Origin: Neobacillus piezotolerans | Lineage (GTDB): Bacteria; Bacillota; Bacilli; Bacillales; Cytobacillaceae | Assembly: GCF_003362805.1 (NCBI RefSeq) | Contig: NZ_QNQT01000008.1 | Span: 62,001-126,000 of the forward strand | Length of the DNA stretch: 64,000 bases | Direction of reading: 5' to 3' | In this document: positions 55,764-60,690 of the stretch, one piece after another | Numbering within the stretch: the stretch's first letter is position 1 | Layout of the letters: every line of letters starts with the position of its first letter | Program-made: the position numbers and the translations under genes | Notes under the pieces: model-generated | Told to the model about the DNA's origin: nothing | Database searches by the model: none | The model's input: only the letters and a program-made list of their open reading frames with translations

Positions 55764-55792
55764 TTGACTTTGCCCTTTTAAATTGAAATACT
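55764..55792 (+). promoter_or_regulatory. Promoter reading into the omega RNA
   Basis: TTGACT (55764-55769), 17-bp spacer, AATACT (55787-55792). Transcription would start near 55799, about 16-20 bases before the first omega RNA hairpin, so the first bases of the RNA would be flanking DNA acting as guide. Confidence 0.5.
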
Positions 55793-55799
55793 TAAATAG

Positions 55800-56077
55800 T
55801 AAGTTCAACCTATGGATAAGGCTGGTGGCATATGTCAATAACCCACCACTTAGCCTTTTTTAAGGCTTGAAGTGGGGGCTTGGTAAAAGCCCTTGTTGAC
55901 TACCCTCAGTCTTTTACAGGCTACGTTGGATAGGTCATGACACCTACGGATGCTCCTCAAGTCCGTTGCCCTGTCGTCTATGGTTAAAAGCTCTTAGGGG
56001 TAGGAGCGGTGCTGTAGACAGGACAATCCTTTCCAACCTTGGGTATGAGGCTATTACTCCATTAGGAGGTATACGTC
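55800..56077 (+). ncRNA. Omega RNA (guide RNA scaffold) of the IscB element
   Basis: A structured, non-coding leader of about 280 bases ending at the iscB start codon. Stems seen: AAGGCT-GGTGG (55818-55828) with CCACC-ACT-AGCCTT (55843-55857); GGGCTT with AAGCCC near 55875-55892; TAGGT/ACCTA near 55935-55950; GCTC-TA/TA-GAGC near 55992-56008; and long-range GTTGGA with TCCAAC. IscB elements carry their guide RNA in this position, with the guide at its 5-prime end taken from flanking DNA. Exact ends are estimated. Confidence 0.75.
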
Positions 56078-57304
56078 ATGTTCGTATACACAATTAACCA
56101 GCACGGAGAACCGCTTATGCCGTGTTCTCCCCGCAAGGCAAGAATCTTACTGAAAGAAAAGAAAGCAAAAGTGGTCAAACAAACACCTTTTACCATTCAA
56201 TTGCTTTATGGAAGCAGTGGCTACAAACAGCCTATTTCATTAGGTGTGGATGCAGGAACCAAGCATATTGGAATCTCTGCCACTACGGAAGCAAACGTTT
56301 TATTGGAAGGAGAAGTCCAGCTTCGCACGGACATACAGGAATTATTGGCAACCCGACTGCAATTCCGCCGAAGCAGGCGAAGCCGAACCACCCGTTACCG
56401 CAAGCCACGGTTTTTAAATCGTAAGCGTGACAAGGGGTGGCTGGCTCCTTCGGTGCAGAACAAAGTGGACAGTCATATCAAAATGGTTCATCAGCTTCAT
56501 TCCATTTTGCCGATTACCGCCATTACGGTAGAGGTCGCACAATTTGACACACAACTCCTCCAAAACCCGCTCATAGAAGGCGAAGGCTATCAGCATGGTG
56601 TACAAATGGGGTTTTGGAATGTGCGGGAATACGTCCTTTATAGGGACAATCACACTTGCCAGCGGTGCAAAGGCAAAAAGAAAGACCCAATTTTAAATGT
56701 CCATCACATTGAAAGCCGTAAGACAGGCGGGGACAGTCCAAGCAACTTAATTACGCTTTGCGAAACCTGTCATGATGAAATCCACGGAAAAGGCTTGGAG
56801 CATACCATTACGCCTCTACGGAAATCATTAAGGGATGCTTCCCATATGACCGTGATGCGGTGGTTTATCTACGAAGCATTAAAGAAAATTTATCCGCACA
56901 TTCACTTAACGTATGGCTATATCACAAAGAATACCCGCATTGGCAATGGGTTAGTGAAGTCTCATGGCGTGGATGCTCGTTGTATAAGTGGCAACCCGTT
57001 GGCAACGCCAACAGATTCCATTTATCTTTGGAAATTTGTACGCAAGAACAATCGCCAATTGCACAAAGCAACGATTTCCAAAGGTGGAAAACGCAAATCC
57101 AACAAGGCAGTACGCTTGGTCAAGGGCTACAAGTTATTTGACAAAGTAACCTACAAAGGACAAGACTGTTTTGTGTTTGGCAGACGAAGCAGTGGATATT
57201 TTGACCTTCGCCTATTAGATGGGACAAAAATTCATGCGTCTGCAAGCTATAAGAAGCTGACACTTAAAGAATGTGCATCAACCTTATTATGCGAAAGGAG
57301 GTAG
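56078..57304 (+). CDS. iscB: RNA-guided endonuclease IscB
   Basis: A 408-residue RNA-guided DNA nuclease, relative and ancestor type of Cas9. The PLMP motif is at 12-15 (EPLMPCSPRKARILL). RuvC-I has Asp58 in LGVDAGTKHIGIS; an arginine-rich bridge helix lies at about 92-116 (LQFRRSRRSRTTRYRKPR); RuvC-II has Glu152 in ITVEVAQFD. The HNH domain (about 184-238) has zinc cysteines 194, 197, 228 and 231, HH at 209-210 and Asn223. RuvC-III has His296 and Asp299 in SHGVDARC. All catalytic residues are present, so it looks active. TAGGAGG precedes the ATG, at the end of the omega RNA. Confidence 0.96.
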   Translation: MFVYTINQHGEPLMPCSPRKARILLKEKKAKVVKQTPFTIQLLYGSSGYKQPISLGVDAGTKHIGISATTEANVLLEGEVQLRTDIQELLATRLQFRRSRRSRTTRYRKPRFLNRKRDKGWLAPSVQNKVDSHIKMVHQLHSILPITAITVEVAQFDTQLLQNPLIEGEGYQHGVQMGFWNVREYVLYRDNHTCQRCKGKKKDPILNVHHIESRKTGGDSPSNLITLCETCHDEIHGKGLEHTITPLRKSLRDASHMTVMRWFIYEALKKIYPHIHLTYGYITKNTRIGNGLVKSHGVDARCISGNPLATPTDSIYLWKFVRKNNRQLHKATISKGGKRKSNKAVRLVKGYKLFDKVTYKGQDCFVFGRRSSGYFDLRLLDGTKIHASASYKKLTLKECASTLLCERR

Positions 57305-57318
57305 GGCAAGCGGTTCCT

Positions 57319-57350
57319 CCCCAACTTACGCTACCGCTTAGAAGTTGGGG
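57319..57350 (+). repeat. Right-end hairpin of the IscB element
   Basis: CCCCAACTT (57319-57327) and AAGTTGGGG (57342-57350) form a 9-bp perfect stem typical of IS605-family right ends recognised by TnpA. Confidence 0.65.
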
Positions 57351-57368
57351 TCTCCTCGCCCAACTCTG

Positions 57369-57833
57369 ATGAAAGTCAAAGATTTCATGATAACGGACGT
57401 AATCAGCGCCCATCCAGACATGATACTTACTGATGTAATGGCCCTATTTGTCGAAAAGAATATAGGGGGAGTACCGATTTGCGGAGAGGATGGAAAATTG
57501 CTCGGCATGGTAACGGATGGGGATATCCTGCGGGCAATTCAGCCGATTGACAGGAAAATATTCAATTTCCTTGTCTACATGGAGTACATGGAAGAAATGG
57601 ATGTTAAAACAAGGCTTAAAGAAACGGCTGCAACTCCAATCCTTTCTATCGCAAAAACCAAAAACCTGATTACCGTTACACCCGACGATGAGATGGACAT
57701 CGCAGTCAAGCATTTATCCACCCACCATTTTAAAAAATTGCCCGTCATTGATAAAGAGAATCGGGTAGTCGGCGTCATCAGCAGGGGAGATGTGATCAGG
57801 AAAATTCAGTCTACCATCCTGAGGGATCTATAG
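57369..57833 (+). CDS. CBS-domain pair protein
   Basis: A 154-residue protein with two CBS domains (KVKDFMITDVISAHPDMILTDVMALFVEKNIGGVPICGEDGKLLGMVTDGDIL, and ILSIAKTKNLITVTPDDEMDIAVKHL ... GVISRGDVIRKI). Such stand-alone pairs bind adenine nucleotides and regulate partners. The ATG at 57369 abuts the IscB element; no ribosome site is visible in the 20 bases upstream, so the insertion probably removed or displaced it. A frame extending back to TTG 57345 lies in the element. Confidence 0.88.
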   Translation: MKVKDFMITDVISAHPDMILTDVMALFVEKNIGGVPICGEDGKLLGMVTDGDILRAIQPIDRKIFNFLVYMEYMEEMDVKTRLKETAATPILSIAKTKNLITVTPDDEMDIAVKHLSTHHFKKLPVIDKENRVVGVISRGDVIRKIQSTILRDL

Positions 57834-60616: not shown

Positions 60617-60690
60617 CGTCCCAGAAAGGATTCGAACCTCCGACCTACAGTTTAGGAAACTGTTGCTCTATCCTACTGAGCTACTGGGAC
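60617..60690 (-). tRNA. tRNA-Arg (anticodon CCU)
   Basis: The minus strand folds as a full cloverleaf. Acceptor GTCCCAG/CTGGGAC; D arm with AGCTCAGTAGGATAGAGC; anticodon arm ACAGTTTCCTAAACTGT with CCU (reads AGG codons); T arm with GGTTCGAATCC; discriminator G. CCA is not encoded. It is followed by a terminator and preceded by a duplicated 5-prime fragment at 60817. Confidence 0.95.

Follow-up and report, generated by a model that had tools for sequence, protein, structure and literature searches.

A HEARO-type IscB element that parts the SD of a CBS-domain gene from its start codon: a candidate portable ribosome-binding site on a mobile element

Comparison with related genomes places an IscB element between the Shine-Dalgarno sequence (SD) and the ATG of a CBS-domain gene in the window, i.e. 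the whole stretch of 64,000 nt from Neobacillus piezotolerans that was analysed. From the sequence evidence assembled below, we consider it on balance probable that a HEARO-type IscB element in such a position borrows the host promoter and carries a portable ribosome-binding site that is bridged by a hairpin. A wider reading is put forward tentatively, at close to even probability. According to it, two distant IscB lineages would be specialised to host translation starts, one inserting before the start codon (TAM RTGA) and the other inside the SD. Each would bring along its own hairpin-bridged, portable ribosome-binding site to restore translation of the split gene, and would in this way obtain a host promoter for its guide RNA while harming the host little. 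The element itself belongs to a known kind; the arrangement of the ribosome-binding site would be the new part. If true, this would explain how the guide RNA is expressed without a promoter inside the element (it is borrowed from the split gene), why these nucleases prefer a TAM in the form of a start codon, and how elements of this kind escape purging. A mobile element would repair its target gene by supplying a ribosome-binding site; this would differ from splicing and is directly testable.

Orthologues of the CBS-domain gene are present in 7/7 congeners, and in all seven the site upstream of it is empty. Once the element is removed from the window, the upstream regions align: TTTGAC and AAATTGAAATACT are identical in 8/8 rows (the window and 7/7 congeners), followed by the SD-like AAGGCTGGTG (AAAGCCGGTG in three), 6-8 nt and ATGAAAGT. 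This means that the promoter flanking the element is native to the CBS-domain gene, whose SD and ATG the insertion has moved apart. The joined flanks match the empty sites of the congeners in layout, and the last few nucleotides before the ATG are unconserved. The left boundary of the element reads GTCAATAACC; the right boundary reads ..AACTCTG, then ATGAAAG. In relatives inserted into other flanks, GTCAA again forms the left end and the right end precedes ATGA or GTGA. The element is therefore assigned to 55834-57368 (Table 1) and does not begin with the promoter, where the range given in the original prediction starts. It is inserted next to a fixed short motif without duplication, as is characteristic of IS200/IS605, with ATGAA at the right flank. 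The original HEARO report is said to have noted insertion before ATGA or GTGA.

The promoter, in which TG precedes the second hexamer, would not stand out by its consensus alone, as 2 such sites occur in 1.8 kb versus 2.8 expected by chance. It is the conservation upstream of the orthologous gene that argues for it. The promoter had already been proposed from the single sequence, and transcription from it is plausible; that it is native to the CBS-domain gene had been missed.

Table 1. Features of the IscB element and its host site (window positions)
Feature	Position	Strand	Basis and remarks
Promoter native to the CBS-domain gene, TTGACT-17-AATACT, upstream of the inserted element	55764..55792	+	Consensus; conservation in congeners
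Displaced host SD of the CBS-domain gene, AAGGCTGGTG	55818..55827	+	Congeners without the element: motif 6-8 nt before ATG (L007-L009: AAAGCCGGTG)
Predicted 16-nt guide, AAGGCTGGTGGCATAT	55818..55833	+	Deduced from the left boundary (HEARO model start) and the known IscB layout
Whole IscB element (IscB/HEARO type)	55834..57368	+	1535 bp; site empty in all 7 congeners; ends shared by relatives that have different flanks
HEARO / omega RNA scaffold	55834..56057	+	RF02033, 136.9 bits vs gathering score 83, E 2.4e-28
iscB, 408 aa	56078..57304	+	NF040563 380.1 bits, cut-off 175; PF14239, PF01844; phmmer to OgeuIscB 1.3e-40
Right-end SD of the element, GAAAGGAGG TA	57294..57301	+	Inside the last iscB codons; anti-SD duplex -17.2 kcal/mol
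Right-end hairpin between element SD and host ATG	57304..57361	+	58 nt, -22.4 kcal/mol
Host CBS-domain gene	57369..57833	+	PF00571, two repeats; ATG is the first codon right of the element, TAM side (ATGAAAG)

The omega RNA is located directly upstream of iscB. The covariance search against omega RNA models that had been suggested as a check returned HEARO, the match ends 20 nt before the iscB ATG, and for the stretch 55834-56077, which reaches to the start codon, the folding z is -3.25. The structured RNA postulated earlier is supported, but instead of ~280 bases it comprises ~224 nt by the Rfam model or 244 nt up to the start codon. The claim of an intact IscB with PLMP, RuvC residues and HNH is borne out by the ORF, by the Pfam domains RRXRR and HNH and by a match above cut-off to the NCBIfam model guided_IscB. 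PLMP is found at residue 12, and the RuvC-type motifs GVDAG, TVEV and SHGVDA start at residues 56, 150 and 295. HH occupies 209-210, and two CxxC pairs start at 194 and 228. In a phmmer alignment to solved IscB chains, the catalytic residues line up with those of OgeuIscB. By sequence, the protein falls into the same fold family as OgeuIscB and OrufIscB. Known IscB/omega RNA (OMEGA) systems and HEARO RF02033 are alike in the protein family, in HEARO directly upstream of iscB, in a host-derived 5' guide and in a TAM across the element. In agreement with the original prediction, no transposase ORF is among the ORFs of the element. Taken as a whole, that prediction stands for IscB, omega RNA, promoter sequence and host origin of the guide, and fails for guide position, first hairpin, element start and RNA length.

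The guide of an IscB is the sequence that abuts the 5' end of the scaffold, and the TAM lies on the other side of the element. Applied to the window, this layout suggests a guide that abuts the scaffold (~55818-55833). The predicted guide AAGGCTGGTGGCATAT would be the host SD region, and the TAM side ATGAAAG, i.e. the start codon in ATGAA. OgeuIscB uses the TAM NWRRNA, which ATGAAA fits. For engineered OgeuIscB a better TAM, NWRGNA, and for NovaIscB the TAM NTAAA are given in PMC13180657; in contrast to these, the TAM of the window copy is read from its flanks only.

The guide had been rightly sought in host sequence of the empty site, but at 55799-55815, off by ~18 nt from one that abuts a scaffold starting at 55834. 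The layout to which that guide belonged, with a scaffold starting at an AAGGCT...AGCCTT hairpin, is very improbable. In its favour, the host SD AAGGCTGGTGG is by coincidence complementary to two scaffold sequences, CCACC and AGCCTT. However, what it takes for the first hairpin contains AAGGCTGGTG (55818-55827), the host SD, a motif also found in congeners that lack the element, so that the layout is already contradicted by the empty sites; moreover, the HEARO model and the relatives with other flanks start at GTCAA, 55834. Since the supposed first hairpin is the host SD, a transcript from the promoter would not start 16-20 bases before the scaffold but would carry a host leader of ~35 nt. Working guides of OrufIscB comprise 13-15 nt (PMC13180657), so the 5' end of this leader would need to be trimmed or be tolerated. 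With such a guide, IscB and omega RNA of the window would be expected to cut. The host SD/predicted guide (55818-55828) is by chance complementary to part of the first stem of the scaffold (55841-55857). This complementarity may disturb omega RNA folding in the window copy. The guide was also considered as an antiviral spacer and rejected: the 16-mer has 9 exact IMG/VR matches, which by a rough estimate is the number expected by chance, 0/9 lie directly before RTGA, and a defence role is without support. A scan with the window IscB revealed no relatives in viral contigs, and a scan of genome contigs for relatives revealed only 3 loci.

At the right end of the element, an SD, 2 nt, a 58-nt hairpin, 7 nt and the host ATG follow each other. 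SD and ATG are 67 nt apart in line and 9 nt apart when the hairpin is bridged. The last iscB codons read GAAAGGAGGTAG and hold this SD with the motif AAAGGAGG. Its strength has a shuffle p of 0.01 (1/101), and no interior window of the element equals it. Folding of 57290-57380 is no better than that of shuffles (z -1.02). The predicted ensemble of the window copy leaves the SD core unpaired to 36% and the start codon to 19%; both this pairing and the fold value count against a working ribosome-binding site in this copy. Across 9 elements, the predicted unpaired fraction of the SD core ranges from 0.36, the value of the window copy, to 0.84. The SD and hairpin at the 3' end had escaped the original prediction, as had the identity of the TAM side with the start codon of the CBS-domain gene.

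A hairpin between SD and AUG that shortens the working distance is known from T4. For genes 38 and 25, it brings the SD from 22 to 5 nt and from 27 to 11 nt, respectively, and weakening of the hairpin lowers initiation (PMC3014915). In T4 the bridged SD is fixed in phage genes, whereas the version in the window would travel on a mobile element to any host gene. IStrons, which combine a group I intron with an IS, are IS-type mobile elements that render their own insertion harmless to the host gene (PMC4227781). The likeness lies in the harmless insertion; the difference is that IStrons use RNA splicing, whereas the window element would act on translation initiation without splicing. Neither an insertion between SD and start codon nor a right-end SD of IscB elements was found in the literature covered, which includes PMC9581776, PMC9755519, PMC13180657, PMC12477157 and PMC4227781; the founding IscB, HEARO and IscB-transposition papers lie outside this coverage.

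For relatives, 103 loci were read, and both ends were placed for 42 HEARO elements, the right ends by eye, either where RTGA or TTGA first occurs beyond the hairpin or through within-lineage alignment (L167 at ATGG), so that some may be wrong. Unplaceable right ends, truncated copies, the orthologous repeats L085, L087 and L148, and the SD-inserting lineage described below were left out. In 32/42 elements, the last 110 nt hold an SD that is stronger than at least 95% of dinucleotide shuffles (p<=0.05). When proteins are clustered at 50, 60 and 70% identity, the right-end SD is found in 4/6, 7/10 and 12/19 clusters, respectively. The right-end SD is absent at several loci. A hairpin separates SD and flank in 31 of the 32 SD-bearing elements. 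Among these 31, the linear spacing has a median of 62 nt (41-76), and the bridged spacing has a median of 10 nt, with 27/31 within 4-13 nt. As in the window, bridging yields a usable spacing. The sequence of the outer stem varies between lineages, and its pairing is kept. In many copies, the hairpin contains a TTCCTCC-like stretch complementary to GGAGG. Several IscB lineages have the SD 3' of the iscB stop, so coding does not account for the motif there.

Eight plasmid records have a HEARO above the gathering score; one of them, L204, repeats the organism and insertion of L172 and is not independent. In six records, the right-end SD has p<=0.05 in 5/6 and 0.059 in the sixth, with a bridged spacing of 6-13 nt; the remaining two were scored with mononucleotide shuffles. 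In 4/8 (L202, L205, L206, L209), the next gene is annotated to start with the RTGA that adjoins the element on the right. L208 runs against the pattern: its strongest SD-like site lies in the 3' side of the right-end hairpin, and its junction ORF has 3 codons.

HEARO elements land at translation starts more often than background sites do. The joined flanks form SD plus start in 13/42 HEARO sites versus 122/2296 background RTGA/TTGA sites taken from the same flanks (p 2.7e-7), an excess that may in part be due to purging, as the background is uncorrected for selection against in-gene insertions. To be counted, a joined site had to combine an SD of -8 kcal/mol or better with a start codon no more than 14 nt from the junction that opens an ORF of 50 codons or longer; the start with the best SD up to 14 nt right of the junction was taken, which leaves the start codon uncertain for L169, L170 and L167. 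The start codon lies exactly at the junction in 7/42 sites versus 69/2296 in the background (p 3e-4), and within the window subfamily 6/11 joined sites form SD plus start. The other 29/42 elements are not at a start with an SD. No association was seen between right-end SD and insertion at a start: 10/32 elements with and 3/10 without this SD are at starts. Both observations count against a portable ribosome-binding site. L083 and L087, from two species, share one HEARO insertion, located ahead of the start of a membrane-transporter-like gene. With the element 90.6% and the flanks 86-88% identical, this insertion is old and tolerated.

The carrier genome encodes a second IscB on contig 12, which is 36% identical to the window IscB; its lineage, together with relatives, is about 30% identical. 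Elements of this lineage have CTC, preceded by AGGAG, as their left end, and SD, hairpin and CCAG as their right end. The hemC site is empty in 6/8 genomes and split in two, and the icmF site is empty in 7/8 genomes and split in the genome of the window. At both sites, the element lies within the SD (AGGAG^G). Both ends were visible at 12 of the 21 listed loci, and 11 of these 12 scored joined sites form SD plus start, compared with 15/115 GGAG sites. The second lineage has the order SD-hairpin-spacer-start without the CCTCC arm, and its SD lies mostly beyond the iscB stop, where no codon requires the motif. We infer that a portable ribosome-binding site is the simplest account that covers both IscB lineages.

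In L158 (G453), a second-lineage element is nested in the SD of a HEARO-type iscB, and a sister genome has the empty form (compare L157, G432). L114 (G004) and L116 (G006) are second-lineage elements in the same hemC SD and are 95.7% identical, compared with 81.7% for hemC and 87.4% for the left flank. The hemC copy of G006 has a nearer match in the icmF copy of the window's genome (97.2%), which suggests that L114 and L116 are two separate insertions at one site. Homing co-conversion was considered for the two hemC insertions and rejected: identity beside the element is 0.86 on the left and 0.85 on the right, which is not above that farther out.

A mechanism can be proposed as follows. The host promoter of the CBS-domain gene would make one transcript. 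Its 5' part, consisting of host leader and HEARO scaffold, would be bound and trimmed with IscB into the omega RNA, with the host SD region as guide. The IscB-omega RNA complex would cut the empty allele, where the guide match lies beside ATGAA, and so keep or re-copy the element; the occupied allele would be safe because 1.5 kb separate guide match and TAM. Through the bridging hairpin, the SD of the element would take the place of the displaced host SD, so that the CBS-domain gene would still be translated. Landing just before a start codon would provide promoter and TAM and do little harm.

The main rival to a ribosome-binding role is a role of the DNA in transposition. Here, the SD-like motif and hairpin would be a signal for single-strand transposition, with the purine run pairing with the hairpin CCTCC or being read by TnpA, and landing at start codons would result from the RTGA target motif together with selection against in-gene insertions. 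The motif may indeed be structural, as the CCTCC of the hairpin in HEARO elements could pair with it; the TTCCTCC-like sequence in many copies fits this. Furthermore, the motif is present whether or not a copy is at a start (10/32 versus 3/10), and an RTGA target alone would favour starts after in-gene insertions have been purged. However, the distant lineage has SD, hairpin and start without a CCTCC arm and inserts in the SD itself, the bridged spacing is narrow (27/31 within 4-13 nt), and for the SDs after the iscB stop coding is no explanation. We regard a DNA signal as possible but rather unlikely.

Silencing of the CBS-domain gene by the insertion is improbable. In that case, the right-end SD would be too far from the ATG, and the copy would be a recent, slightly harmful insertion or a relic. 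The 67 nt between SD and ATG in line, the predicted pairing of most of SD and ATG in the window copy, the 0/7 congeners with the insertion and the lack of a detected IS200-type TnpA in the genome are in line with this. An intact CBS-domain gene may only mean that the insertion is recent, since no congener shares it. Nevertheless, iscB, omega RNA and CBS-domain gene are all intact, the core genes hemC and icmF lie behind the same arrangement in related elements, and one HEARO insertion is common to two species.

The carrier genome comprises 4.5 Mb in 36 contigs, with the window on contig 35, and contains the window element in a single copy. No IS200-type TnpA, the Y1 transposase that characterises IS200/IS605, was found in the element or in the genome. 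The window element would depend on a TnpA supplied by another source, or else may be stranded. The sole Y1_Tnp match in the genome is RAYT-like, with 74 bits as REP transposase (cut-off 80) and 20 as IS200 TnpA (cut-off 55). A RAYT-like transposase gene is located beside an array of short repeats (L075, G000:C23:208990-209313). A tRNA gene is found at 60617-60690 of the window on the minus strand.
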